IMG/VR virus record: IMGVR_UViG_3300041405_000166
Location: 26,792 to 90,791 of that record
Reading direction: 5' to 3' (one strand)
Source: a virus
Length of the DNA: 64,000 bases
The notes beneath the pieces are model-generated. The model saw only the letters and a list, made by a program, of their open reading frames with translations. It searched no databases and had not been told where the DNA came from. How positions within the stretch are numbered: the stretch's first letter is position 1; the number at the start of each line of letters is the position of its first letter. The translations under genes were made by a program, and so were the position numbers. This document shows positions 23,836 through 54,781 of the stretch, one piece after another.

Positions 23836-24975
23836 TTAGAACGGTGAATCGTCGTCGCCTTCCGGTGCGTCTGGATCAGTGTTGGGTGTGTCGTCACCGC
23901 CGAACATCTCACCGAGTTCGTCCACTGGATCTTTCGGCGCTTGATCGCCGGTATCATCCTGCTGTTGTTCAAGGACTGGCTCAATGACCAAGGCCTCGTT
24001 TTTCTCCAGCTCTGGTTCCGGGTCCGCTGGCTTGTCGGCGGGTTTGGTTTGACGCGGTCTCCGGCCGCTGGGCGGTGCCGGATCCTTGATCGCGCCGCCA
24101 GTCGTTGCCCCAGCACTGTCAGTGCTGGTGGTTTCAGGTTTCGACTGTGTCGGTTCCTTAACCAGTGGCTGTTCGGTTTTCGCTTCGAACGCCTCGGAGG
24201 CTGAGACGTTACCGTCCTTGACCGAGTTGTAGATGCCGATCAGCAGGACGATATCGTCCGGCATGATGTCGACCAGCTTTTTGCCCAGGCGCGTTTCGAT
24301 GTGCTTTTGGGTGACGCCATACGGGGCGAACTTGGTCAGCATGCCTTTAACGCGTTCGCTGAGCGGGATACCGGCGCCGCCCTGCAGGGTCAGACGGCAA
24401 CGCTCTTCGGCAGCCTTGACGATATCGGCCGGCAGCACCGCCAAGATACGGGCACGCATACGCCGCGCGCCCATGTTGGCCCCCAGCTCGTAGATGTCAC
24501 GCTGATCAGTCAGGGCATAACCGCCAGCCTTGGTATCACGCTTGTGGTGCACGGTGAATCGCTGGGTGGTCAGGGTGTTGGTTTCCAGATCCCAGGCATA
24601 CGCCTCGAGTTCGGTCACGCCGTCCTTGTTCGACAGCTCACGCATGCCGTAGTCGATGTTGCCCCAGGCGCTGGCCAAGGCTTCCGCCAGGCGGATCGAC
24701 GGGCCGGTGACTTCTTGCCCGCCACGCTTGTAGGAGTAGAACGCCGCTTCGGCCATCCCCGGCAAGGAACACGCCTTCATGACTTTTTCCCAGGCAGCAA
24801 CCGGATCACGCGGCATGGATTTGGCGATCATCAGCTTGGCCTGGACTTCGGCGATCGCACGTTGCACCTCGATCGTCACGGTACCGGCGTTCACGCCATC
24901 AGGCAGACGGTTACCACCCGCTTGAACAGCGTAGGGGTTGACCATCTGGTTAGTTGTTGCCACGTCTTTGCTCAT
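23836..24975 (-). CDS. Putative single-strand annealing/recombination protein
   Basis: 379 residues. The N-terminal ~240 residues carry a pattern conserved in phage and prophage recombination loci: VEVQ-like start (IEVQRAIAEVQAKLMIAK), FYSYKRGGQEVTGPSIRLAE, AWGNIDYGMREL and GANMGARRMRARILAVLP. I remember this as an annealing-protein-like family, and it is adjacent to an exonuclease. The C-terminal ~110 residues are an acidic, Pro-rich linker ending GDDDSPF, an SSB-type tip. It overlaps the exonuclease gene by ATGA. Assignment to a specific SSAP family was not tested. Confidence 0.65.
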   Translation of the reverse strand: MSKDVATTNQMVNPYAVQAGGNRLPDGVNAGTVTIEVQRAIAEVQAKLMIAKSMPRDPVAAWEKVMKACSLPGMAEAAFYSYKRGGQEVTGPSIRLAEALASAWGNIDYGMRELSNKDGVTELEAYAWDLETNTLTTQRFTVHHKRDTKAGGYALTDQRDIYELGANMGARRMRARILAVLPADIVKAAEERCRLTLQGGAGIPLSERVKGMLTKFAPYGVTQKHIETRLGKKLVDIMPDDIVLLIGIYNSVKDGNVSASEAFEAKTEQPLVKEPTQSKPETTSTDSAGATTGGAIKDPAPPSGRRPRQTKPADKPADPEPELEKNEALVIEPVLEQQQDDTGDQAPKDPVDELGEMFGGDDTPNTDPDAPEGDDDSPF

Positions 24976-25944: not shown

Positions 25945-26003
25945 CGTTAAACCATGGTGCCACCGGCATCAGGGTAAATACTGGAAAAGACAAGGTGAAA
26001 ATC

Positions 26004-26309
26004 ATGAACTTGGCATCTGATCTACTGCAAAAGGTGGACAGCGCAGGATTCCCTGTAAAGGAAGTTTGTGTGCTGGCCGGTGTATCTCCGTCGACGATCG
26101 CTGTATTGCGTCGGCAAAAAACTGGGTGCAGTCAACGCACCTATGACCTGATGATCGGCGCGCTGATCAAAATGGTGCAACAACGTAACCAGAACATGAT
26201 CGAAGCGCATCTGGTGCAGTTGGACCTGATCAACTCCGCTGATACGGAGGAATCGCTTGCTCGCAATAAAGAGCGTGATGCTGAGGGGGAACAGGGGCAC
26301 CACGCATGA
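26004..26309 (+). CDS. Small helix-turn-helix regulator
   Basis: 101 residues from ATG 26004 (AAGGTG, 6 nt spacing). Residues ~18-50 form an HTH: VKEVCVLAGVSPSTIAVLRR, followed by TGCSQRTYDLMI. Located first after the divergent control region, it may regulate either operon. The C-terminal ~35 residues are charged. It overlaps the helicase gene by ATGA. A Cro-like or operon autoregulator is plausible. Confidence 0.72.
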   Translation: MNLASDLLQKVDSAGFPVKEVCVLAGVSPSTIAVLRRQKTGCSQRTYDLMIGALIKMVQQRNQNMIEAHLVQLDLINSADTEESLARNKERDAEGEQGHHA

Positions 26310-27778
26310 GTTCGATTCAGCTCAGGCCGTACCAGGCTGCCGGGGTTGAAGCGATCCGCGCTTCGTTCAAGGCAAAAAATCGGGCAGTGCTGTATGTGTT
26401 GCCCACCGGCGGCGGGAAAACTTTCACGTTCAGTTACGTGGCAGATGGAGCGACCAAGAAGCAAAACAAGGTTCTGATCCTGGTCCACCGTAAAGAGCTG
26501 TTGATGCAGGCATCGATGTCGTTGGCGAAGATGGGGCTCAAACATTGCCTGATCGCCCAGACCGAGCATATCCGCGAGATCCAGCACCAGCAGCTCAGTG
26601 AGCTGGGTCGGTTGTACTTGAGCGAGACGGCGAAAATCGCGATCGCCAGCGTAGGGACTTTGGTCAATCGGCTGTCGACCACCTGGTCGCCTGATCTGAT
26701 CATCCCGGACGAAGCGCACCACTGTCAGAAGGATAACACCTGGGGCAAGATCCTCGGCTTCTATGATCAGGCGCGCATCCTTGGCGTGACCGCGACACCA
26801 ATCCGCTCTGATGGTAAGGGTATGGGCGTCGACTTCGGTGGCCTGTTCAATGACCTGGTGGTTGGGCCGTCCATGAGCGAGTTGATCGCGCTGGGCTATC
26901 TGTTGCCGTCGACCGTGTACGCACCGCCGACCGCCTTGGATCTGACCGGAGTGCGTTACGGCAGCGGCGGCAAGGACTTCATTCAAAAGGAGTTGGTAGA
27001 AGCGGTGGACAAGCCCGTGATCACCGGCTCTGCGGTCAAGCACTATGGCAAGTTGTGCCCGGGCCTTCAGGCGCTGGCGTTCTGCGTCTCGGTCTCGCAC
27101 GCCGAGCACGTCGCGGCCGACTTCCGTGCCGCCGGCTGGAAATTCCAGTCGATCGACGGGACCATGCACAGTGCCCAGCGCCGCTCGTTGATTCACGGTC
27201 TGACCACTGGGCGCCTGGATGGCTTGAGCAGCTGCGACATCGTTTCCGAAGGTACGGACATTCCGGTAGTGGGTTGCGGGATTCTGCTGCGGCCAACACA
27301 GAGTACTGGTCTGCATATGCAGCAAGTTGGGCGGATCCTTCGACCGTTTGAAGGTCAGGACCGGGCGATCGTGCTGGACCACGTTGGCAACTGCGCCAAG
27401 CATGGCTTGCCCGAAGAGGACCGCGAGTGGTCCTTGAGCGGTGAAGTGAAACGCGGCGGCAAGAAAAACGAAGTGAATATCCGTGTGCTGCAATGCGATA
27501 CCTGCTGGGTTACCTTTGCCCCCGCACCGCAATGCCCGAACTGCGGAACGGCGGTAGAATTCAAGGGTCGTGTGGTCGATGAGGTTGACGGTGAGCTGCA
27601 GCGGGTCGAGGCCGAGCAGGCGATGCAGATGAAGCGCAATCGGGCCTTTGAGCAGAGTCAGGCCAAAACACTCGAGGAGCTGGTCGAGCTGGCCAAGTCG
27701 AAACGCTACAAGAATCCGCACGCGTGGGCCCGGCACATTCTTCACGGGCGCAAAGCAAAACAGGGTGCTAGGGCATGA
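26306..27778 (+). CDS. Superfamily 2 DEAD/DEAH-box helicase
   Basis: 490 residues. Q-like LRPYQ at the start, motif I PTGGGKT (33-39), motif II DEAH (135-138), motif III GVTATP, and motif VI LHMQQVGRILRP (~res 335-347). A C-terminal zinc ribbon CDTCW...CPNC (res ~397-413) precedes a coiled tail. This is the UvsW/RadD-like architecture used in branch migration or replication restart. It overlaps both neighbours (ATGA), as part of the replication operon. Confidence 0.9.
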   Translation: MSSIQLRPYQAAGVEAIRASFKAKNRAVLYVLPTGGGKTFTFSYVADGATKKQNKVLILVHRKELLMQASMSLAKMGLKHCLIAQTEHIREIQHQQLSELGRLYLSETAKIAIASVGTLVNRLSTTWSPDLIIPDEAHHCQKDNTWGKILGFYDQARILGVTATPIRSDGKGMGVDFGGLFNDLVVGPSMSELIALGYLLPSTVYAPPTALDLTGVRYGSGGKDFIQKELVEAVDKPVITGSAVKHYGKLCPGLQALAFCVSVSHAEHVAADFRAAGWKFQSIDGTMHSAQRRSLIHGLTTGRLDGLSSCDIVSEGTDIPVVGCGILLRPTQSTGLHMQQVGRILRPFEGQDRAIVLDHVGNCAKHGLPEEDREWSLSGEVKRGGKKNEVNIRVLQCDTCWVTFAPAPQCPNCGTAVEFKGRVVDEVDGELQRVEAEQAMQMKRNRAFEQSQAKTLEELVELAKSKRYKNPHAWARHILHGRKAKQGARA

Positions 27779-28215
27779 GTGAAATTAACGTCGTAAAAGC
27801 CATCATGCTGCACTGCTCGCAGGGGGCGTCGAGGCTGTTCAAGTTGACCACCGGCCAGGGCTGGGTCGGCAATTTCAAACGGGTGAAAGGCATGTTGGTG
27901 GCGACGGACTTCCGTCCGCTGCGTGCGGGCCTGGTGAAGTCGGACAACGAGCTGGTGGATGGCGCCAGCGACCTGAATGGCTGGACCACCATCACCATGA
28001 CGCCGGAGTGGGCCGAACGGCTGATGGGCAAGAAGATCGCCATTTACACGGTGATCGAAGTGAAGGACCTGAAGGGCTCTGCGCAGAAGAACCAGAAGTC
28101 ATTCGTGGCCCGGTTGCGCTTGTTCGGTGCCATTGCCGGTTTCGCCAAAACTCCCGAGCAGGCTCAGGCCGTCATTGACGCCTGGCCATACGACGACCAA
28201 CAACAAGGGAAGTAG
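27775..28215 (+). CDS. VRR-NUC domain nuclease
   Basis: 146 residues. The pattern LVDGASDLNGW...VIEVKDLKGSAQKNQKSFV contains the D...(E/D)xK catalytic elements and the trailing Gln of VRR-NUC proteins. A C-terminal helix follows (KTPEQAQAVIDAW). Family members resolve branched DNA or act with helicases; here it is coupled by ATGA to an SF2 helicase and precedes the primase. Confidence 0.8.
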   Translation: MSEINVVKAIMLHCSQGASRLFKLTTGQGWVGNFKRVKGMLVATDFRPLRAGLVKSDNELVDGASDLNGWTTITMTPEWAERLMGKKIAIYTVIEVKDLKGSAQKNQKSFVARLRLFGAIAGFAKTPEQAQAVIDAWPYDDQQQGK

Positions 28216-28219
28216 CGTC

Positions 28220-31009
28220 ATGGCACGAAAAGAGCTACCCCGCATTGACCGGGACAAAATCCTGGCCGCGGTCGATATCGTTGAAGTGATCACCGGCTAC
28301 GGCGTGGGTCTGAAGAAGTCCGGCAAAGAGTGGGAGGCCTGCTGCCCGTTCCACAAAGAGCGCACGCCGAGCTTCAAGGTCGTTCCGGACAAACAAATTT
28401 ATTACTGCCACGGCTGCGGCGCGGGCGGTGACGCGATTCGGTTTGTCACTGACTTCGAGCAGATGAGTTTCGTCGACGCCTGCAAGGTGCTGTCGGGCGG
28501 CGATCTGCGCCAGGTGAACAATCTGACGCCAGTGCAGCGCGACTCGGTAAAGGTGAATGCCCAGCCGGAATGGGAGCCGATTATTCCTGTGCCTGAAGGC
28601 GTGCCGGATGCGACCTTCATTTACCGCCGGATGATCGATGGCGAGTGGCAGGAATTCCCGATCCAAACGATTTACCCATACCGCGACATGGGCAGTCAGC
28701 TGATCGGCTATGTCGTGCGCTTCCTGCATCCAGTCACTGGAAAAAAGGAACTGATGCCGCTGGTGTGGGCCCGCAACACCGAGGACAACCGCGAGGCCTG
28801 GCGTTGGCTGTCGTTCCCGAAACCACGCCCGCTGTACGGCCTTGATCGGCTGGTGCAGTTCGACAGCAAGGTTCCCGTGCTGCTGGTCGAGGGCGAGAAG
28901 TGCGTCGACGTAGGCGCCAGTGTCGTCCATCAGATCCCAATCGTGTCCTGGCCGGGCGGCGGTAAAGCGATTCGTTATGTCGATTTCAGTCCGCTGGCGG
29001 GGCGCAAGGTCATTCTGTGGCGGGATGCCGACATCCCGGGCTACCAGACCACCTACGGCTGGTTTAGCGAAGACGGCGAGCTGAACAAAGGCCTGGTGCA
29101 GCTGCTGCAAGAAGCCGGCGTGGCCGGGATCATGTGTGTCGAACCGCCTGATGGTTCGCCAGATGGCTGGGATATCGCCGACGCGATCGAGGTCGACGGC
29201 TGGGACAATGCGCACACGCTGGCCTATATCAAGGCGCATGCGGGAAAACCACTCGAGCCGCTGCCGCACTATGACGGTAACGATGAAGAAATCCCGGACC
29301 TGTACGAAGGTGAGGCCGAAGGCGCCAGCGTCGATGAAGAGGAAGAATTCAAGGACCCGGTCAGCGACGAATACATTGAAGTGTTCGACGACGAAGATGA
29401 TCCGTACCGCCCATTGGGTTATGACCATGGTTCGTTCTTCTACTTGGCCAAGGGTTCGCGCCAGGTGCATGAACTGACCGCGTCGGGCCACTCGAAACAG
29501 GCGCTACTGGCCATGGCTCCGTTGTCACACTGGGAAGCGCGCTACCCAGGCGCTACCAGCCGCGTATCCTGGGACATGGCGATCAATGCCCTGATGCGAA
29601 TGTGTGAGGCCGAGGGCATCTATGACCCTGACCGCATTCGCGGGCGTGGCGCCTGGTGGGACAGTGGGCGCTCGGTGTTGCACCTCGGTTCGCACCTGAT
29701 CGTGGACGGCACCGTTTGCCAGCTGCGCGACGTGGACGGCTGGCACATTTACGAGCATTCGCGCGCCATGCTGGTGGACATCGACCATCCATTGAGCGCC
29801 CGCGAAGCGTACAAGGTGATCGAGATCTGCAAGATGATGCAGTGGGAAAAACCGATCGATGCTTACCTGTTCGCCGGCTTCATCATGCTGGCGGCGATTT
29901 GCGGCTCGCTGGACTGGCGCCCGCATATCTGGCTCACGGGCGGTGGCGGTACCGGTAAATCCTGGGCGATCACTAACATCCTGTCGCGGTGCCTGGATGG
30001 GTTCGCGCTGAATGCGCTGTCATCGACCACCGAAGCGGGTATCCGTCAGGCCCTGGGACACGACGCGCGCCCGGTGATCTTCGACGAAGCCGAAGGCGAG
30101 GACGCTGGAGCTCAGCAGCGGATCCAGAACATCATGCAGCTGATGCGTCAGGCTTCCAGTGAATCCGGCGGCGAGATCCTGAAAGGCAGCGCCGGGGGTA
30201 AACACCAGTCGTTCCGCATCCGTTCGATGTTCGCGTTCTCCTCGATCGGCGTCGCGGTGCACCAGTACTCCGACAAAACCCGGGTATCGGTCCTGCAGCT
30301 GCGCGTAGATCAATCCCAAAGCCAGGAAGCCCGTGCGGAGCAGTTCTCCAAACTGGAAGAGCTGACCTTTGGCACGCTGACCGATGAGTTCGTGCAAAGC
30401 CTGCATGCTCGTTCGATTCGCATGATCGGGATCATTCGCGAAAACGCGAAGACCTTCGCCAAGGCCGGTGCCCGTGTTTTGGGTCAGCAACGGCTGGGCG
30501 ACCAGATTGGGGCCTTGCTCGCCGGTGCCTATGCGTTGCACTCGAACAACGTGGTCACCATTGAAGAAGCGCAGAAGTGGATTGAAGGCCAGGAGTGGGA
30601 AGAAGAAAACAGCCTGAACGAGCAGCGCGACGAGTTCTCGCTGATGGCCAGGCTGATGAGCCAGCAAGTGAAAGTGCTCGGCGCGCAAGGCAGCAACCTG
30701 GATCGAACCTTGGGCGAGTTGGTCGGCCTGGCGTCTGGGATGGAAACCGATCCTGAGGTCTATGTGCAGACGGCGAAAGAGTCGTTGATGCGCTACGGCG
30801 TCAAGCTGTCGGACGACCGCTCCGGCGTGATCATCTCCAACCAGCATGATGCGATCGGCAAGATTCTGCGCGACAGTCCATGGCCTAACAACTGGGGCAA
30901 GATCATCAAGCGGATACCGGGCGCAGTTCCTACGACCAAGACCGAATATTTCGGCGTTGGCGCTGTCTCACGAGCGGTAATGGTGCCAATTACGGCGCTG
31001 ATGGGATGA
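28220..31009 (+). CDS. Primase-helicase: CHC2 zinc finger, Toprim-like and AAA/DUF927-type ATPase
   Basis: 929 residues from ATG 28220, with AAGGGA upstream. The N-terminus is a DnaG-type CHC2 finger: C42PFH45 and C63HGC66. Residues ~200-290 look Toprim-like (VPVLLVEGEKCVDVG, then KVILWRDAD). An acidic linker (~355-390) leads to a C-terminal ATPase: LTGGGGTGKS (572-581), then VIFDEAEGED as Walker B and sensor-like residues. Combines primer synthesis with unwinding at the phage fork. This is one of the largest genes in the window and the core of the replication operon. Confidence 0.85.
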   Translation: MARKELPRIDRDKILAAVDIVEVITGYGVGLKKSGKEWEACCPFHKERTPSFKVVPDKQIYYCHGCGAGGDAIRFVTDFEQMSFVDACKVLSGGDLRQVNNLTPVQRDSVKVNAQPEWEPIIPVPEGVPDATFIYRRMIDGEWQEFPIQTIYPYRDMGSQLIGYVVRFLHPVTGKKELMPLVWARNTEDNREAWRWLSFPKPRPLYGLDRLVQFDSKVPVLLVEGEKCVDVGASVVHQIPIVSWPGGGKAIRYVDFSPLAGRKVILWRDADIPGYQTTYGWFSEDGELNKGLVQLLQEAGVAGIMCVEPPDGSPDGWDIADAIEVDGWDNAHTLAYIKAHAGKPLEPLPHYDGNDEEIPDLYEGEAEGASVDEEEEFKDPVSDEYIEVFDDEDDPYRPLGYDHGSFFYLAKGSRQVHELTASGHSKQALLAMAPLSHWEARYPGATSRVSWDMAINALMRMCEAEGIYDPDRIRGRGAWWDSGRSVLHLGSHLIVDGTVCQLRDVDGWHIYEHSRAMLVDIDHPLSAREAYKVIEICKMMQWEKPIDAYLFAGFIMLAAICGSLDWRPHIWLTGGGGTGKSWAITNILSRCLDGFALNALSSTTEAGIRQALGHDARPVIFDEAEGEDAGAQQRIQNIMQLMRQASSESGGEILKGSAGGKHQSFRIRSMFAFSSIGVAVHQYSDKTRVSVLQLRVDQSQSQEARAEQFSKLEELTFGTLTDEFVQSLHARSIRMIGIIRENAKTFAKAGARVLGQQRLGDQIGALLAGAYALHSNNVVTIEEAQKWIEGQEWEEENSLNEQRDEFSLMARLMSQQVKVLGAQGSNLDRTLGELVGLASGMETDPEVYVQTAKESLMRYGVKLSDDRSGVIISNQHDAIGKILRDSPWPNNWGKIIKRIPGAVPTTKTEYFGVGAVSRAVMVPITALMG

Positions 31010-32152: not shown

Positions 32153-33085
32153 ATGAACTTCACTCATCTGAAAAACGCGATCGTCTTCAAAGCGGAACTG
32201 CCGAACGCCAAGGACCTGGAAACGCACCTGCTCGAGCGCCCGTTCGATGAGCTGCCGGAAAACATGCTGTCGCGCTCGGGCTTCGTGCCGAACAGCTTTA
32301 CCGGTGAGTTGGTGACCACGTTCGAGGGCGGTTACGCCTTCACCCTGCGCGAAGACAGCAAGGTCTTGCCGATGAACCTGGTCAAGGCCGAGGCCACCAG
32401 GATCGTCAAGGAAGCCGAAAAGAGCAGTGGCGTCCGGCTGAAGAAGGTTGAGCGCGACGCGATCGCCGAGCAGACCCTGGCCTTGATGTGCAAAAAGGCC
32501 CTGGTCGAATCCCAGTACACGACGTGCTTCTATCACATTGGCGAAAAGCTGCTGATCGTACCCACGGCCGGCAAGGCGATGGCCCGCATGATCGTCGGTG
32601 TGCTGGTACATGTGGTGGGGTCGGTGAAGACCACCACCATCCATATCAGCGACATCAAAAACGGCCTGACCACGCGCCTGAAAAACCACCTGGAAGGCCA
32701 GCCGCAAGCGTTCGGCGAACTGCTGCTGGGTAACCTGGTTGAGCTGAAGAAGAAGGGCCAAAAAAGCCAGAAGGTCAGCTACCAGCTCGACGACCTGGCG
32801 GCGGGTAAAACCGGCCTGATCGAGGCGCTGGAAAACAAACTTGAGGTCCATTCGATCCGCTTCGAGCACGGCGAGATCGAGTTCAAGTTGAATGATGAGT
32901 TCCAGTTCAGCAGCATCAATTTCGCCAGCGATCCGGAGTACGACAGCAGCGAGCTGGAAGACACCGCGCACGTCTGGAGACATGAGGCATCGATTCAGCT
33001 GCTGGAGCTGGTCGGCGCGATCACTCACATCTGCGACCTGCTGGGCTACAAACCGCCAGTGGACGAAGAGGACGAAGCGGCATGA
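32153..33085 (+). CDS. rdgC: RdgC-like recombination-associated protein
   Basis: 310 residues, close to the ~300 of RdgC. The N-terminus MNFTHLKNAIVFKAELP, FVPNSFTGELVTTFEGGYAF, VERDAIAEQTLALMCKKALV and the C-terminal KLEVHSIRFEHG follow the RdgC ring protein pattern. RdgC binds double-stranded DNA and inhibits RecA loading. In a phage with its own annealing-exonuclease system, it may direct recombination away from host RecA. Confidence 0.82.
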   Translation: MNFTHLKNAIVFKAELPNAKDLETHLLERPFDELPENMLSRSGFVPNSFTGELVTTFEGGYAFTLREDSKVLPMNLVKAEATRIVKEAEKSSGVRLKKVERDAIAEQTLALMCKKALVESQYTTCFYHIGEKLLIVPTAGKAMARMIVGVLVHVVGSVKTTTIHISDIKNGLTTRLKNHLEGQPQAFGELLLGNLVELKKKGQKSQKVSYQLDDLAAGKTGLIEALENKLEVHSIRFEHGEIEFKLNDEFQFSSINFASDPEYDSSELEDTAHVWRHEASIQLLELVGAITHICDLLGYKPPVDEEDEAA

Positions 33086-35593: not shown

Positions 35594-36512
35594 GCGCAGC
35601 GGGAAGATCACCAAAAGCGAAGCCAGCCTGCATATCCTCGAGGAAGGTCGTCCTAGTGATTTCAGGGAAGGCGAGGCCTGGGAGCACATATATAAAAATC
35701 AGGTATTCAAGCGCGTCGTGTGGATGTTGAATCAGCTTGGCTGGACATTGACCATGCCGGAGGTAGAGCCGTATGCGAAGAAGGCCTATGGTAAGTACGC
35801 GATCGAATCCGCTAGGCGCAAGCGTTTCTGCCAGAAAGGCGACCTGAAAGCCGATCTTGAAATGTCGCACCAATCGATCGAGCTGAAGTTCTTTCAAAGC
35901 CTAAACACGCCGGACCGGGCTGACCATGAAGGCCGGTACCAGAATGACAAAGAGCTGCACATGACCTACATGATGCGCCTGGAGATGGAGCGCACGCGCA
36001 ATCGGATCACCACCTACCTGTGCAATGTGTTCACTGGTTACCAGGTTGAACAGGAGTACCGGCCGAAGGTCGGGCCGAAGGGAATCACCGCGCTCGAATG
36101 GAAAGACATGGAAATCCGGCGCAGTGGGCACTTTGTCGAGGCGCTCGGCCACGCGCGCATCCACTGCAAGCGCAGCGAGACCGGTCGAGACGGCGGTACC
36201 ATTGTTCACGGGGCGACCGTCTGGTTCAGGGACTGGCGGACCAAGCGGGTTTTCCGTGGGACCGCGTTCTATAGCCTGAATGATTCGTGGAAGATCATTT
36301 ACGGGAAATACGCGTACACCGTGTGCCAGATCCAGGACATCTATACCAAGCCGCCGGAGACCTTACGGATTCGCTGCGAGCGTGCGCGGGCTTCTCGGCT
36401 CAAGAGTGAAATCAGCACTGCGGTCAAGGCCATGAATTATGAGCGGGCGGCGAAGCTGCGCGACATCCTGTATCCGGATGGCGTGCCAGTCAAAGAAGGA
36501 GACGCGGCATGA
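35580..36512 (+). CDS. Unknown protein with C-terminal UVR-like motif
   Basis: 310 residues. The C-terminal segment RLKSEISTAVKAMNYERAAK leading to LRDILYP closely resembles the UVR motif by which UvrB and UvrC interact. The rest is basic and rich in Arg/Lys/Tyr, with no motif recognised. It may be a DNA-binding or repair adaptor that contacts host excision repair. Overlaps both neighbours. Confidence 0.62.
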   Translation: MAQIERSGKITKSEASLHILEEGRPSDFREGEAWEHIYKNQVFKRVVWMLNQLGWTLTMPEVEPYAKKAYGKYAIESARRKRFCQKGDLKADLEMSHQSIELKFFQSLNTPDRADHEGRYQNDKELHMTYMMRLEMERTRNRITTYLCNVFTGYQVEQEYRPKVGPKGITALEWKDMEIRRSGHFVEALGHARIHCKRSETGRDGGTIVHGATVWFRDWRTKRVFRGTAFYSLNDSWKIIYGKYAYTVCQIQDIYTKPPETLRIRCERARASRLKSEISTAVKAMNYERAAKLRDILYPDGVPVKEGDAA

Positions 36513-37042
36513 TGACCATCGAGGAGCGTAAAGCGTTCGCCAAACTGATCAGGCCGGCAGTAAAGGGCCAGTCGGACAAATTCAGTTGGCGGCTATTTCA
36601 GCGCGAGTCGATCCGCGGTAAAGAGCGGGTGTATATCATGGCCTACCACCTGGTCACTGGGATGCCGCGCACTCCTGACCTGGAGGCCTTGAAGGTCGGC
36701 GACGGTTCGCAGATGAGCCTGCTGATGGTTGGCGAAAAAATCGAAGAGTCCGGTTGGTTCCATGGCTCGCAGCTGCAGCATGTTGTTCGAAAGGGAATGC
36801 AGAAGGTCGACCAGTCGTGGGCCTATGGCCCGATGTTCAACACGAAGAACTGGCTCGATATCACCGATTGGTTTTGGACGCAGTACATGCTGCGCGGACG
36901 GTGCATCTTTATGCACGACGTCCATGCTCACTCGTGGATCAAAATCAATAAGAATGCCCGCAAGTGCGAATGGTGCAGTCAGCACCAGCGCCGCACCGTG
37001 GTCACCGAAAAAACAATCACTCGAAAGGAACGTTGGTCATGA
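36509..37042 (+). CDS. Unknown protein with C-terminal Cys-His pairs
   Basis: 177 residues, ATGA overlap with the previous gene. Near the C-terminus, HDVHAHSWIKINKNARKCEW then CSQHQ could bind a metal. Aromatic residues are frequent. No family recognised. Stop overlaps the next start. Confidence 0.55.
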   Translation: MMTIEERKAFAKLIRPAVKGQSDKFSWRLFQRESIRGKERVYIMAYHLVTGMPRTPDLEALKVGDGSQMSLLMVGEKIEESGWFHGSQLQHVVRKGMQKVDQSWAYGPMFNTKNWLDITDWFWTQYMLRGRCIFMHDVHAHSWIKINKNARKCEWCSQHQRRTVVTEKTITRKERWS

Positions 37043-37527
37043 GCGAGAAAGCAGTAGTAATTGATCTGGATGCGATCGAGAAGGCGGCGAAGGCGGCACT
37101 GCAAGAGCCGGTGTCTACGGCGTTCCTGGTGAAGACGAACGATGAACTGAATGCCTGGATGGGTTCGTTCTACGCGGACGATGCCGAGACTGATGCTTAC
37201 CGGCTCCATTCCTTGTGGGCCTGGCAGGAACAGGAGCGGCGCCGTGCGCCCGTGGTGCTTGAGCTGATCCGCCGGCTGCGCGCTGCCGAAGCACTCGCCG
37301 CATCACGGATCGAGCAGATTCCGGTCGATACTCGCGTACTGGCCATCTTCGCCGACATAAAACCGGAGCACATCGCCTACGCTGAGGAATTCACCCGGCT
37401 GATCCAGCGGCGCACCAGTAGCTGGACTCTGGTTGCCTATTTCAATACTGACGCCCATATCGAAGCGCTGGATATCGAAACCATGCGTACCCGTGGGTGG
37501 ATCCGTGCACCGAGGACTGATGAATGA
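37039..37527 (+). CDS. Small helical protein, unknown
   Basis: 162 residues from ATG 37039 (AAAGGA 9 nt upstream). Mostly alpha-helical and acidic, with a central Arg-rich helix (EQERRRAPVVLELIRRLRAA). No motif recognised. Coupled to neighbours by 4-nt overlaps. Confidence 0.55.
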   Translation: MSEKAVVIDLDAIEKAAKAALQEPVSTAFLVKTNDELNAWMGSFYADDAETDAYRLHSLWAWQEQERRRAPVVLELIRRLRAAEALAASRIEQIPVDTRVLAIFADIKPEHIAYAEEFTRLIQRRTSSWTLVAYFNTDAHIEALDIETMRTRGWIRAPRTDE

Positions 37528-40371: not shown

Positions 40372-41187
40372 CTATGAAACGCGGGTGACCGTCGCGTCGT
40401 TGCCGGCGGCGACAACCTTGAACTTCTTCCCGTTGCGGATCCCGTAGCTGTAAATGATGCTGCGCAACAGGGACATAGAGGTAAAATCGGCTTTCGGGAT
40501 CAGCACGGACTGGTCGACGTCGATCAGGTGATAAGCCTTCGGAGCCAGCTTGCCAGGCTCATTATCCGCGCTGTTCTTCTTTTTGGTGATGGTCTGTTTT
40601 GCCAGTAACTTGGACAGCTCGCCGGCTTCACGGGGGTTGAGCTGGGTTGGCTTGAGCGCGCGCAGCGTGAGTTTCAACCCCTCATAAGTGGCAGTCACCC
40701 GTGCGATGGTGGCCCGCTCCTTCTGCCACTCTTTGGCGAAGTGGAACACGTTCTGGATGGCGTCGACGTCGCGCAGCTTGAAGAAGTACACCTTGCCCGA
40801 TTCCATGGCGTCGAGCTGCTCATAGGTCCAGGCTTTCATATGGTCGTAATAGGTGCCGAGCGGGACCTTGTACATCATCTGGAACGTGCCGTGGTGGTCC
40901 CTTTCGGTACGGGCCACCACTTCACCGCCGAAGGCTACCGGGTCCTTCCAGCAGGATTTTCTGAGCATGTCGGCCACCTGGAAGTCACCCATCACCCTGA
41001 CTTTTGTCCATGGTTTGATCGATCGTGGATCGGTCGTGCCACCCATTTCGACAGATGGTTGATCCTCGAACGGGCCCTGGTCGAAAACTGAATGGGGACA
41101 TTCGAAGACCTTTTCGGGCTTTTCGGCGTTTGGATTTTGCGGTCTGAACATGAGTGCGGCCTTTTTTGGCGAAGTCGACGTATACAT
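40372..41187 (-). CDS. Unknown protein next to the AT-rich region
   Basis: 271 residues from ATG 41187, chosen because GGAG lies 8 nt upstream; the frame also opens at ATG 41301 without a ribosome site. Contains VRVMGDFQVADMLRKSCW, aromatic/basic stretches and LKPTQLNPREAGELSKLL. No family recognised. It is a single minus gene between two plus operons, with its 5' end toward the candidate origin, so a role in replication control is possible. Confidence 0.62.
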   Translation of the reverse strand: MYTSTSPKKAALMFRPQNPNAEKPEKVFECPHSVFDQGPFEDQPSVEMGGTTDPRSIKPWTKVRVMGDFQVADMLRKSCWKDPVAFGGEVVARTERDHHGTFQMMYKVPLGTYYDHMKAWTYEQLDAMESGKVYFFKLRDVDAIQNVFHFAKEWQKERATIARVTATYEGLKLTLRALKPTQLNPREAGELSKLLAKQTITKKKNSADNEPGKLAPKAYHLIDVDQSVLIPKADFTSMSLLRSIIYSYGIRNGKKFKVVAAGNDATVTRVS

Positions 41188-41319
41188 TTTCGTGCTCCAA
41201 AATTGTAGATGAGGATGCTGGGCCTGTATATGCTCCTTGGCCTTTTTCGCCCCGCGGACCCCGAAAATCGATGGAAAACCCGGTAGATTTTGGTCTGTCA
41301 TTTTCGGATGGCGCGTAAG

Positions 41320-41545
41320 TGATTGATTTTACTGCATAACAAAATGACGCAACAACGCTCCAAAGAGAGAGGCACCCCTAGAGAGATATAGGGTTAGCTA
41401 CTGTATACCCTATATAGACATATACGGTTATAGAGAGAACCATAGGGGTATATAATAATAAATAAATGTTTAAATAGTTATATTATATATATAAGACCCT
41501 GATTTCATTGGACTTTTCCCTATAACATTTCAACAAACAATCGAC
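41320..41545. other. AT-rich, hairpin-rich non-coding block, candidate replication origin
   Basis: About 225 nt with no credible gene and strikingly low GC. It holds several short inverted repeats: CCCTA...TAGGG (from 41377), TATAGGGT...ACCCTATA (12-nt centre, about 41388-41415), GGTT...AACC (about 41428-41443). A pure A/T tract follows (about 41453-41491, ATAATAATAAATAAAT, then TTATATTATATATATAA). The short element AGAGAGA recurs three to four times. It is flanked by diverging transcription. Confidence 0.5.
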
Positions 41546-41662
41546 TGTCAGACCTATTTCACGTTACAGGGCCATTTTTCGCTACCAATCAGGTTCAACC
41601 CACTGGTTTTTGTGTACGGATCCTTTACACTTCGTCTGGCGGATCCAATCACGACGAGTGCC
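41546..41662. other. Non-coding leader, no recognised signal
   Basis: Together with the AT-rich block it makes a ~475-nt gap between ATG 41187 (minus) and ATG 41663 (plus). Base composition returns to normal. I see no clear promoter box or hairpin here. Confidence 0.4.
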
Positions 41663-42223
41663 ATGAACCAGACCATCGAGCTGATCGAGTACACCGAATT
41701 CCCCGGAGCACCGGGTAAGTACTTCGTCTGCCCTCGAATGCCAGGCAACGCCACGCTGTCCACAACCGCCTGTGCCAGCCAGTTCACCGTCGCCCGATAC
41801 GCCAGGCAGGATGAGGAACGGGATACCCGCCACTACTGCCGCAACTGCCCCACCGGTGCCAAACACGCCGGGATCGATGACTTCGTGCCCAGGACCCAAT
41901 TCCAGGAGTCCACCGAATGCGTCCGATGCGGCAACACCGGCAGACGACTCATTCGAGGCTGTGTCTGCGTCAGCTGCTACAACCGTGAACTCGAAGTACT
42001 CAAGGGTTCCAACGCCAAAGGCACCAAGCCCATTCGATGCGCCATCGTCTACCCCATGCAAGCCATGGTTCGAGACGGCAAACGCAAAGCCAAAATCCAA
42101 CTCTTCGTCGCCACCGGCATGCTTGAAGTAATTCTAGCCGCTGCCAAGCGATCCAAGGATCGAGCCGTCGTCGGATTTCGAGGCAAAGTCCGCCCCTACG
42201 CCATCCAGCTGAGTCTGTTCTGA
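41663..42223 (+). CDS. Zinc-binding protein, unknown
   Basis: 186 residues from ATG 41663. Cysteines are spaced for two metal sites: FVCPRMP...TTACAS...HYCRNCPTG, and ECVRCG...GCVCVSCYN. The C-terminal half is basic (RDGKRKAKIQ). The start ELIEYTEFPGAPGKYFVC recalls a conserved Pseudomonas prophage family of unknown role. First gene after the candidate origin. Stop overlaps the next ATG. Confidence 0.66.
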   Translation: MNQTIELIEYTEFPGAPGKYFVCPRMPGNATLSTTACASQFTVARYARQDEERDTRHYCRNCPTGAKHAGIDDFVPRTQFQESTECVRCGNTGRRLIRGCVCVSCYNRELEVLKGSNAKGTKPIRCAIVYPMQAMVRDGKRKAKIQLFVATGMLEVILAAAKRSKDRAVVGFRGKVRPYAIQLSLF

Positions 42224-42462
42224 TGACCGAACCGAAGTACGCGCTGACCAACCACTGCTGCAAACTCTGCTTAGGTCGAATCCTCTTCGACGGCACGCTA
42301 CACCGCTGCTCAAACTGCGGTGTGGAGTCGTCAGTGGGTCATGAGGGGATCTGCGCCTGTGGGGCAACGATGAAGTCAGGAAGGAACGCCAGGCTTCGTT
42401 GTGCGCTGAACAACAAGCGTGATACCAGCTTCCCTGGCGAAGTCGTGGTGGAACAAGTATGA
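42223..42462 (+). CDS. Small zinc-ribbon protein
   Basis: 79 residues. NHCCKLCLGR, HRCSNCG and ICACGATMK give three Cys pairs, enough for one or two zinc ribbons. A small putative nucleic-acid binding protein, coupled by overlap to both neighbours. Confidence 0.62.
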   Translation: MTEPKYALTNHCCKLCLGRILFDGTLHRCSNCGVESSVGHEGICACGATMKSGRNARLRCALNNKRDTSFPGEVVVEQV

Positions 42463-42989
42463 GTGGAATCGGCATGTACAAGCGTCCCGAGGCTGGCGAT
42501 GACCAACCGTTGGCCATCTTCAAACGGCTCATCGTCGAGTGCGAAGAGCTGCATTTCCTCCAGACATGGGAAGTCGACGTTGAGTTCCTGCTACGGACGG
42601 ATGCGTTGGTGATGGGCGGACGAACGGTGGAAGGGCAATGTCATATGCCGAAGGTCCAAGGCATGCTGAAGAACTTCTTCCTGTGGATGCTCGAGGAAAT
42701 GTTCGGTCGGGTTCCTGACTTCCTGGTCACGCTGGATGCAGAGCTGTGGGAAGCGTACACGCCGAAGGAGAGAGAGATTCTCATCTACCACGAAACCTGT
42801 CACATGCAGCTGAAAACCAACGCTGAAGACGAACCGATGATCGATGACGAAACGGGAAAAGCGCGCTGGTCCCTCCGTGGACACGACGTCGAAGAATTTA
42901 TCGCGACGGTGCATAGGTACGGTGCCTATCGGTCAGATATCCAGGCTTTTGTCGACGCAGCCTCTGGACATAACAACGAAAAAGCCTGA
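42459..42989 (+). CDS. Phage metallopeptidase-like protein (HEXXH)
   Basis: 176 residues. HETCH at residues 111-115 is an HEXXH zinc motif; PKVQGMLK, FLVTLDAELWEA before it and GHDVEEFIATVHRYGAY after it match a putative phage metallopeptidase family. The substrate is unknown; the downstream Glu-rich DVEEF could give the third ligand. Cytoplasmic (no signal). Confidence 0.7.
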   Translation: MSGIGMYKRPEAGDDQPLAIFKRLIVECEELHFLQTWEVDVEFLLRTDALVMGGRTVEGQCHMPKVQGMLKNFFLWMLEEMFGRVPDFLVTLDAELWEAYTPKEREILIYHETCHMQLKTNAEDEPMIDDETGKARWSLRGHDVEEFIATVHRYGAYRSDIQAFVDAASGHNNEKA

Positions 42990-48183: not shown

Positions 48184-48396
48184 ATGGCCCTATATTCACT
48201 GCTGGACATGGCCGGTTGCGGTGAGGTGGCGTTGTATTACGCCGCCGTCGCTGTCGCGGGTCAACCTCTTGACCTGTCGAAGACCTACGACATTCACGGC
48301 AACTATGCCGGGCACTCGCATTGCACATCGTGCGGCCGAGCGCTTTCCCCGCCTGACCTTCGCGTCGATTGGTTTTTCCCTGAGGTCGTCCACTGA
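48184..48396 (+). CDS. Small protein before large terminase
   Basis: 70 residues. Contains GHSHCTSCGRALSP, a possible half zinc site. Its stop overlaps the large terminase start (TGATG), so the two are probably coupled. Confidence 0.52.
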   Translation: MALYSLLDMAGCGEVALYYAAVAVAGQPLDLSKTYDIHGNYAGHSHCTSCGRALSPPDLRVDWFFPEVVH

Positions 48397-50453
48397 TGGG
48401 GATGCCGGTTGACTACCGCCGTGGCCTGGATGCCATGATCGCCAAGCTGGAGCAGAAGACGGGCTTCAAGCTGGAAAACAAGATCATCGCCGACGGGCAG
48501 ACGTTCCGCGAATGGTGTGAAGAGCTGGGGCGCAATGGGCTGAAGGTGGACGGGCATCCGTTCACCCTGCACGACCGGCCGGCGATGGCCTGGATCTACG
48601 ACCAGATCCCCAGCACCCAGGACGAAGCGTTCCGGACCATCCTGGTGATCATGAAGTGCGCCCAGGTTGGGTTCACGGTGATGGAGATGCTCGCCACCAT
48701 CTACCTCGGTCTCAAGTTCGGTCCGTGCACCGTCGGCATGTTCCTCCCGGATATGAACCTGGCCGGGTTGAAGTCCTCCGAGCGCTTCATGCCGATCGTG
48801 CGCACCGTGCCGGAAGTGCATAAGCTGATGGTGATGGACGCGGGCGACGGCAGCGGGCATAAGGTCGGTGAAGGCAACGTGCGAACGCGACGCATCGGCG
48901 ACGCCATGTTCGTGTTCAGCTGGACGTCCGGTCGCGCCACCACCGAATCCATCCCCATGGATATCCTGTCCTTCGACGAAGTGCAGGAAATGACCCTCGA
49001 GCAGATCGAAAAGACTTACGAGCGTCTGTCGGCCAGTCCGATCAAGTTCATGCAGATGGGCAGCACGGCCAACTGGCCGGACGCCGATATCCATCACTGG
49101 TACAAGCTCGGCACGCAGCACCGCTTCCATACCCGGTGCCCTGAGTGCGGCTCGATGAAGCCCCTGGACGACTATTTCCCCCAGTGCATCCAATACGACA
49201 AAGAGCGCGATATTTACCGCTACGTCTGTCCGAACGGGCATTACCTGAGCGAAACCCAGGACGGCGAATGGATCCCCGACAACCCGGACGCTGACCGCGG
49301 GGTTGAATACGGCGTGCCCTGGAAGGAACGCCGCAAGCGCATCAGGTCGCTGCACTTTCCTCAGTTCCTGTCGCCGACGATATCGGCCGATGAAATCATC
49401 AGCGCCTACAACGGCGCGACGGACATGAAGAACTTCTACAACCGGAAGCTGGGCAAGCCGTATCTCGATCCGAGTCAGATCCCGGTCACCCTCGAGCACA
49501 TGGCCAACTGCGTCGCCGCCGGTACCGCTGCGGGCATCATGTGGAAAACCCGCGCCAGCGGCTGTTACATGGGCATCGACCAGATGGGCCAGTTCAACGT
49601 GGTGGTGATCAAGGAGCGATTGCCCGATGGTCGCCAGGCCTACGTGCACATCGAGGAGATCTACGACGAAGACCCGTTCGCCCGCTGCGACGAGCTGATG
49701 CGCAACTATGGCGTGGCCGTCTGCGTGGTGGAAATCAACCCGAACTACAACGACGCCAAACGCTTTGCCGGCCGCTTCCCGGGTCGCGTGTTCATCTGCA
49801 ACAGCTTCGGCTCGGTGCAAGAAGGCATGATTCAGTGGGGCGACGCGCCCAAGCTGGACACGTCCGATCGTCGCACCGACGAAGAGGAACGCGACCGCTT
49901 CACCCTGCGCATGGACCAGTACAAGTGCATGCAGGTGTCGATGGCCAGGTTCACCGCGGACGAGCCGCATTGCCTGGTACCAGATCCGCAAGCGCTGGTG
50001 CAGGAAGTGCTGGAAAAGGGCAAACGCCACCTGGTGCCCGTCGCGCCGCGGATGTTCCACCACTTCACCAAAACCGCCCTGGTCGCCGAGCGCGACGACG
50101 AAACCAACGCCTACAAGCGCTCGGTGAAGAAGGTAGGCATTGACCCACACTTCAGCTACGCCAACATGCTGTGCGACGTGGCCTGGGCTCGCTCCCATGG
50201 CACCACCAGCTTCATCCTGCCGCAAGAGAAGAAGGCCACGCCAGGCCAGGAGTCGGTTATGGAAGCAATGCCAGGTTTGCCGGAGCACATTGTCGCGATG
50301 GTCGATCCGTTGCCACAAGGCGTGTGCGGTCGGTGCTCGGCATTCGATCCGGACGCGGGGCGCTGCACCATGCGCAACTTCCTGGTCCAGAAGAAGGATC
50401 CCGGTTGCGATATGTTCATGGTCAGGGAATACGACGAAGATCTGTCGGAGTGA
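48396..50453 (+). CDS. terL: Large terminase subunit (GpA-like)
   Basis: 685 residues, the size of GpA-type terminases. Walker A-like IMKCAQVGFT follows the FRTILV strand near residue 90; Walker B ILSFDEVQEM at about 190; zinc-binding CPECGSMK near 250. The C-terminal part from ~385 (GCYMGIDQMGQFN, then CVVEINPNYNDAKRFAG) carries the RNase H-like nuclease. A Cys-rich tail (CGRCSAFDPDAGRC) ends the protein. Cuts and translocates DNA into proheads. Confidence 0.9.
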   Translation: MGMPVDYRRGLDAMIAKLEQKTGFKLENKIIADGQTFREWCEELGRNGLKVDGHPFTLHDRPAMAWIYDQIPSTQDEAFRTILVIMKCAQVGFTVMEMLATIYLGLKFGPCTVGMFLPDMNLAGLKSSERFMPIVRTVPEVHKLMVMDAGDGSGHKVGEGNVRTRRIGDAMFVFSWTSGRATTESIPMDILSFDEVQEMTLEQIEKTYERLSASPIKFMQMGSTANWPDADIHHWYKLGTQHRFHTRCPECGSMKPLDDYFPQCIQYDKERDIYRYVCPNGHYLSETQDGEWIPDNPDADRGVEYGVPWKERRKRIRSLHFPQFLSPTISADEIISAYNGATDMKNFYNRKLGKPYLDPSQIPVTLEHMANCVAAGTAAGIMWKTRASGCYMGIDQMGQFNVVVIKERLPDGRQAYVHIEEIYDEDPFARCDELMRNYGVAVCVVEINPNYNDAKRFAGRFPGRVFICNSFGSVQEGMIQWGDAPKLDTSDRRTDEEERDRFTLRMDQYKCMQVSMARFTADEPHCLVPDPQALVQEVLEKGKRHLVPVAPRMFHHFTKTALVAERDDETNAYKRSVKKVGIDPHFSYANMLCDVAWARSHGTTSFILPQEKKATPGQESVMEAMPGLPEHIVAMVDPLPQGVCGRCSAFDPDAGRCTMRNFLVQKKDPGCDMFMVREYDEDLSE

Positions 50454-53693: not shown

Positions 53694-54781
53694 AAGTAAC
53701 TCCCCTTCGGTTCCCACTTATCAGCCTTCTTGATCAGAGCGCGGAACGAATCGCGACCAGATCGACTCAGGTGCTTGCGGTTGGTCTTGTACCAGTCCTC
53801 AAGAATGTCGGCCGGCGTCTGCGCCTTGACTGGTGCGTTGCGCGCCCGGTAGCTGCTCGAACTGGACAATGCCCCGTGATAACCGGAACTCATGTAGACC
53901 CCACGGTGTGCGTGGCCTTGAGTCTTGAGTGTATCAGCTTCTGTCTGTGACTTTACAGCTATACCATCAGGATATTTGGCGGTGAAACGTGAAAATAACA
54001 GTTCGGCCAGGGGTTCTGGCGTGTCGTAGTTGGCGTATTCCAGATCCGGTGCGCCGTCCTCGATCAGCTTGGCGACGAGATCCTGGTCCTCGATGGTGAA
54101 CCAGGCGTCTTTCACGCGGAACTTGAGGGTCACGTCACTGACGGTCTGGCGATCGCGCTCGAGCTGCATGTGCTCGGGTAGGAAGTCGTAGCCGTAGTTC
54201 ATGTTGGTTTTGCACACGAACAACCCGCCGACATACAGCTTGCCCGGGCGACTCGGCAGAATGCTGCACGTCTCAGTGCCGATCACGTCCTTCATGGGCG
54301 GCTGCATGCGCAGGCAGGAATCACGGATAGCCTCTTGCTCATCCTCGGCCAGGTTGTTGACCATGAAACAGATGCCGGTGTCGGGAAACGGATTCTCCGA
54401 TTCGACGATGGTCAGCAGCTCGGTGTCGAACTGCTCGCTGTGCTCGAACACTGGCGTCCACAACTTATCGCCGTTGTAGATGCTTGGCTGTTTGCCTTCG
54501 CGCTCAAGCACCAGCAGCGCCAGTTTGTAGCCTTCGCCGAAGCAACCAATCTTGCTGGCCTGGTCGGCTTTGCTGGATGAGCCGAGGATCAGCGTGCGCG
54601 CGTCGAGGGTGTCGTAGCGGCTGGTGATGCTAAACTGATCACCCTCGAACGAGTACTCGAACGGCGAATCGCTGTCCAAGGCGTTCTGGATGAATTCGCG
54701 CACCGCTTCGAGCACGCCCCAGTTGCTGACGTAGTTGCGGGACATCGACAGCTGATAGCGGGTATCTGGCATCAGGTCCAT
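53690..54781 (-). CDS. GHKL (Hsp90/MutL-like) ATPase
   Basis: 363 residues from ATG 54781. The N-box AVREFIQNALD gives Glu29 and Asn33; ILGSSSKADQASKIGCFGEG then YKLALLVL forms the lid and second G-box, as in MutL/MORC-type ATPases. The classical DxGxG motif between them is not obvious, so ATP hydrolysis may be altered. The C-terminal half is unassigned. It directly follows an Arc/P-loop gene, its start overlapping that stop (TAATG). Paired regulator or host-defence function is possible. Confidence 0.68.
   Translation of the reverse strand: MDLMPDTRYQLSMSRNYVSNWGVLEAVREFIQNALDSDSPFEYSFEGDQFSITSRYDTLDARTLILGSSSKADQASKIGCFGEGYKLALLVLEREGKQPSIYNGDKLWTPVFEHSEQFDTELLTIVESENPFPDTGICFMVNNLAEDEQEAIRDSCLRMQPPMKDVIGTETCSILPSRPGKLYVGGLFVCKTNMNYGYDFLPEHMQLERDRQTVSDVTLKFRVKDAWFTIEDQDLVAKLIEDGAPDLEYANYDTPEPLAELLFSRFTAKYPDGIAVKSQTEADTLKTQGHAHRGVYMSSGYHGALSSSSSYRARNAPVKAQTPADILEDWYKTNRKHLSRSGRDSFRALIKKADKWEPKGSYF

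Follow-up and report, generated by a model that had tools for sequence, protein, structure and literature searches.

An AT-rich block beside the packaging start as a putative lytic replication origin in a family of ~90-kb phages

The window analyzed here is a stretch of 64 kb, the last part of a 90,791-bp viral record. A non-coding gap of 475 bp with about 42% GC (41188..41662) separates a 271-aa gene on the minus strand (40372..41187) from a plus-strand gene encoding a 186-aa, 8-cysteine zinc-type protein (41663..42223). These limits were set because the left gene, with a GGAG ribosome site at 41195-41198, probably starts at 41187, and the ATG of the zinc-type gene, fixed by alignment with relatives, lies at 41663. 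The original prediction placed the region between diverging genes; the orientation holds, and the left boundary has to be moved, with the gene start probably at 41187 and not at 41301. The left gene is common only to contig L002 and, having no relatives beyond it, is not a general partner of the block. The zinc-type protein shares 87% identity with that in L002 and 32-38% identity with those in nine phage records. No Pfam or PHROG family fits this protein, and its predicted structure (pLDDT 85) has no PDB match and a single weak viral match. Four small, non-mobilizable enterobacterial plasmids of 10-13 kb (L038, L039, L042 and L043) encode a longer protein with the zinc-type domain as its N-terminal part, and these genes adjoin ProQ/FinO-family and VapE or DUF927 proteins; such plasmids may be satellites packaged by phages of this kind. 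Further right in the window, 42459-42989 is labeled PHROG 513 'transposase', yet has a good Pfam match to PhageMetallopep (putative metallopeptidase), and the Rhodovastum plasmid RHOApe carries a putative metallopeptidase at the matching position.

Within the gap lies an AT-rich core of 225 nt (41316..41540), with a GC content of 0.320, compared with 0.586 for the window as a whole. The lowest 225-mer elsewhere in the window has a GC of 0.422, and a 120-mer in the core (41411-41530) falls to 0.242. According to GC scans the core is the AT minimum of the entire 90.8-kb record, as expected of an unwinding element, and it is considered a putative one. Pure A/T runs of at least 14 nt occur twice in the 64 kb, both times inside the block, as TATATAATAATAAATAAAT (41449..41467, plus strand, 19 nt) and TTATATTATATATATAA (41478..41494, plus strand, 17 nt). 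TTA/TAA-type repeats comparable to the former recur in the AT cores of most relatives. Three AGAGAGA copies (41364, 41380 and 41432; plus strand, 41364..41438) were counted in the block and four more elsewhere in the window, and purine or pyrimidine tracts are also present in the AT cores of several relatives. The low-GC block of about 225 nt, unique in both window and record, the repeated AGAGAGA and the long pure A/T tract were all correctly predicted. Directly to the right of the AT core lies CCCTGATTTCATTGG (41497..41511, plus strand), of which 14/15 bases are kept in L002. It is followed by a conserved leader of the zinc-type gene (TTTACACT ... GGATCCAATCACGAC; 41624..41655, plus strand), with identical blocks in L002, which is promoter-like and is inferred to be the promoter of this gene. 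An Rfam search of the block gave no family match at E<=1.

Four imperfect inverted-repeat pairs are also present in the block. A three-stem element (41374..41449) can be drawn with an outer stem at 41374-41380/41443-41449 and inner stems at 41386-41394/41407-41415 and 41426-41429/41438-41441. With these hand-chosen boundaries its folding reaches z scores of -2.2 (plus strand) and -2.7 (minus strand) relative to shuffles, and 310 nt at the block fold with a z of -0.81. At the same place, L002 has hairpins of different sequence with z scores of -4.5/-4.8. The prediction of at least three inverted repeats therefore stands as to their presence, while their strength is moderately better than that of shuffles. 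An RNA-fold scan of the window's genome did not single them out as a genome-wide outlier. The hairpins were accordingly dropped as the key feature and carry less weight than the AT content.

Searching the phage collection at the DNA level returned no match. Relatives were found via the zinc-type protein, and two collection scans added 111 loci. The only known relative retrieved with a 15-base pattern was L021 (the L002 contig); of the other matches, the first one was checked. In L002 an AT block of largely different sequence occupies the same place, and the right flank is conserved (CCCTGATT.CATTGG plus the leader described above). About 40 zinc-gene relatives share an AT core, mostly 200-700 bp upstream of the gene. 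A recent insertion, or a coding or IS remnant, had been offered as an explanation on composition alone. It is rejected as extremely improbable, as the same block with conserved flanks is found in L002, the element recurs in dozens of distant relatives, and no ORF of at least 90 aa was found inside the AT block.

Among 89 distinct upstream regions, a dense array is present in 29 and an AT core without an array in 14; the other 46 have neither. Most AT cores of relatives are flanked by 8-38 (~10-40) copies of a short near-palindrome, such as GGTWACC (Touem01 and Jeremy), GGATACC (PHB04), GGTAGC (ST4), CTGGAACAG (Yersinia) and CTGTSACAG (Enterobacter). All isolates read have the AT core upstream of the zinc-type gene, and each has an array except Mecenats66, whose core has 18% GC. 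In an unbiased scan, clusters of all possible 6-mers were scored in all 800-bp windows along 14 complete genomes, with Markov-simulated genomes reaching a maximum score of ~14. The top cluster is located at the block in eight of the 14 genomes (PHB04, Touem01, ST4, Jeremy, Yen8, phiT5282, G005 and G013; scores 21-58). The block cluster is the second strongest in G021, and in Mecenats66 and G012 it is indistinguishable from background. Iteron-like arrays are thus strong in most relatives, and the window has a borderline cluster of CGAAAA/TTTTCG (41082..41581), with copies at 41082, 41111 and 41120, inside the left gene, and at 41187, 41244, 41262, 41301 and 41576. This weak candidate array is the top 6-mer cluster of the window's genome, at 13.9 versus 12.3 elsewhere, barely above background. 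The block cluster also ranks first in the L002 genome, with a borderline score of 14.5. Since 13.9 lies within the range of the simulated genomes, the window has the core of the element without a convincing array.

The zinc-type gene adjoins the packaging cut across this phage family. The packaging start of Mecenats66 has been verified by sequencing and digestion, and its record was rotated to pac (PMC9503643), a paper whose text does not contain 'origin of replication' or 'AT-rich'. The homologous zinc-type gene spans the cut (base 1 of OL614104.1) and ends 14 nt beyond it. The record of Touem01 (PP179325.1) ends 12 nt past the end of the homologous gene. This case is weaker because Touem01, although PhageTerm-processed and listed as headful (pac), is also described in the text as 'headful without a pac site' (PMC11256456). 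As the ends of both relatives are at most 15 nt away from where the zinc-type gene stops, pac, the headful packaging start, is expected at 42209..42235 (plus strand) in the window. The zinc-type gene itself may encode or contain a pac recognition function (small terminase-like), judging from this position; no description of such a role was found.

The terminase large subunit (48396..50453, plus strand in the window) and the zinc-type gene were both identified in 21/21 near-complete genomes. Fourteen of these carry the block, and all 14 also encode a primase-helicase with a CHC2 zinc ribbon (phrog_35358 DNA primase; 28127..31009 in the window, plus strand), a DEAD/ResIII DNA helicase (26306..27778, plus strand), a VRR-type nuclease (27775..28215, plus strand) and a phrog_3657 protein (23836..24975, minus strand). 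In the seven block-lacking genomes, matches to the primase, helicase and nuclease number 0/7, and phrog_3657 has a weak match in G020 only. After 12 records were added, an ST4-type primase and helicase were present in 25/25 near-full records with the block and in 0/8 without it; the unweighted chance of this split is 7e-8, which overstates the case because the genomes are related. In the zinc-gene tree, the window and L002 form a pair apart from the array clade, with deep nodes weakly supported, and inside the array clade G010 (the L051/L052 pair) lacks both block and module. The association of the two is therefore probably not one event, and appears to have arisen or broken more than once. 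The early region of the window also contains an RdgC-like gene (32153-33085), whose counterparts are annotated as 'recombinase' in ST4 and as RdgC in Mecenats66.

These distributions bear on whether the block is instead a recognition zone of the packaging machinery, with the terminase or a partner binding the repeats and cutting ~0.7 kb to the right. Such a zone is favored by the positions of the verified Mecenats66 cut and of the Touem01 end from PhageTerm, next to the adjoining gene's 3' end, and pac of phage P1 is made of hexamer repeats. However, the cut is precise and one gene distant, with the pac equivalent ~0.7 kb right of the AT core, at the far end of the next gene and not at the block. 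In addition, eight near-full relatives keep the zinc-type gene (and the terminase in 7/7 tested) without the block, which goes with the primase and helicase instead. We consider this explanation unlikely. The packaging-site alternative of the original prediction was thus right about proximity and probably not about identity.

Because the block tracks the primase and helicase and not the packaging module, it is best interpreted as the lytic replication origin of this phage, with a probability of about 0.68. What points to an origin at the sequence level is the AT core, its conserved position, the arrays of relatives and the perfect co-occurrence with primase and helicase. Against it stand the lack of a clear array in the window's genome and the GC skew: no consistent skew switch was found at the block in 11 genomes, so that the strand bias proposed earlier as a check did not appear. 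The candidate origin of the original prediction remains the best-supported reading through the primase-helicase association and the iteron-like arrays of most relatives, and fails on the skew test. A candidate phage protein would bind the repeats around the AT core, the core would melt, and the DEAD helicase and primase-helicase, whose genes lie 13-15 kb further left, would load there and begin synthesis. In the lineage of the window, the dense array would have been lost or have diverged, with binding perhaps via the weak CGAAAA-type repeats or the hairpins.

Arrays between diverging genes could also be phage-repressor operators between early promoters, which would themselves explain the AT-richness. 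The block lies between diverging gene sets in the window and in most relatives, including six isolates (PHB04, Touem01, ST4, Dolphis, Jeremy and Mecenats66). In the window a small HTH protein (25995..26309, plus strand) is encoded directly upstream of the helicase. Such a protein lies beside the helicase in all array carriers, and those of the window and Mecenats66, homologous by position, have a different recognition helix. However, in Enterobacter phiT5282EW and in Yersinia fHe-Yen8-01 the genes on either side are co-directional, which makes the block more than a two-way promoter. Some 10-40 copies spread across 0.5-0.9 kb, with an AT core of 100-200 bp in their midst, also exceed usual operator needs, and control of early genes by itself does not predict joint loss with primase and helicase. 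A control region is accordingly an improbable explanation of the block.

Plasmid-type initiators were searched as well. No TrfA, RepA_C or Rep_3 gene was found in the window's genome, and none was found in six block-lacking genomes (G010, G016, G020, G023, G025 and G027; 0/6). Two other block-lacking members have iteron origins with an AT core, at 36427-37263 beside a TrfA gene in the L025 genome (G001) and at 54020-54460 beside a RepA gene in RHOApe. With their plasmid initiators and iteron origins, both are likely phage-plasmids. They illustrate the appearance of an origin in this family and show that a different replicon can carry the packaging module. G013 and G021 carry, besides the block, a plasmid initiator of the Rep_3 type that has a separate repeat cluster. 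Plasmid origins are therefore no simple replacement for the block, and the idea that a plasmid Rep takes its place was rejected as not clean. Phage P1 has separate plasmid and lytic origins, and by analogy G013 and G021 are assumed to be two-replicon phages like P1. In G020 (the L098 genome), a repeat cluster of AGGGTA/ATACCC was observed beside a GC minimum, 30.6-30.2 kb left of the zinc-type gene; this genome has neither block nor primase module, and the cluster is possibly an origin of another type. The repeat array, the plasmid Rep genes of some relatives and a ParA-like protein reported for Touem01 would also suit a plasmid-like prophage that uses the block for partition or as a centromere. 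This is very unlikely, since a centromere needs no AT core and block carriers probably include some without par genes.

The repeats appear to turn over between relatives. In L104 and L110 the left gene, the palindrome in the AT core and the leader are nearly the same, and their zinc-type proteins and helicases are 96% and 95% identical, whereas their arrays are completely different (CAAAACCG-type versus GGTAAC). A single well-supported clade contains the repeats GGTWACC, GCTACC, GGAACA and GTSACA. Mosaicism and poor ORF calls spoiled an attempt to compare the swapped pair (G022/G005) gene by gene. We tentatively suggest that the recognition code of the origin might be swapped wholesale, with the AT core, flanks and replication genes kept and all repeats rewritten, a scenario that we hold to be somewhat doubtful. 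If true, origin specificity would differ from lineage to lineage, much as among plasmid incompatibility groups, next to a packaging start that stays fixed. The small HTH protein is the best lead for the repeat-binding protein, and it is the most diverged of nine proteins compared in L104/L110 (72% versus 89-97%). Its presence and absence at first matched the arrays perfectly. Because of the homologs in the window and Mecenats66, and because its recognition helix hardly varies when the repeats do, it was rejected as an established array binder and kept as a lead only.

To our knowledge, few large tailed phages have had their replication origin mapped. The block offers a testable origin location for a ~90-kb phage family with Pseudomonas, Bordetella, Aeromonas, Yersinia, Enterobacter and Morganella hosts. 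The putative origin is associated with a particular group of replication genes and lies beside an experimentally mapped packaging start, which makes the coupling of replication and packaging approachable. The naturally swapped arrays could serve in a search for the binding protein and in work on the reasons for which origin codes drift apart.

Several known systems resemble this element. In the ori and crr regions of phage P4, short repeats of either orientation surround AT-rich DNA, and the initiator is the gp-alpha primase-helicase, encoded some kb away. The element described here likewise has, in most relatives, repeats flanking AT-rich DNA, and a phage-encoded primase-helicase some kb off. 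However, P4 is a satellite with one fixed iteron, whereas the repeat here varies between relatives and the module adds a DEAD helicase and a nuclease. Iteron plasmid origins (RK2 oriV/TrfA, RepA/Rep_3) also have repeat arms around an AT core, and two relatives carry such origins elsewhere. In contrast to them, the block has no adjoining Rep gene; its repeats are 6-9 bp long, mostly near-palindromic and up to ~38 per block, and the array of the window is weak. Phage P1 is a ~90-kb temperate phage with oriR plus oriL and with pac in pacA. It is similar in its size, in a pac within a gene and, for G013 and G021, in the two repeat clusters, but the sequences are unrelated, and pac and putative origin are neighbors in the present phages. 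A further comparison is with the mapped pac of Mecenats66 (PMC9503643), a phage that belongs to the same phage family, has the same gene at the cut and has an AT core upstream too. The element is expected in kind, and the turnover of its repeats and the adjacency of putative origin and pac are new.
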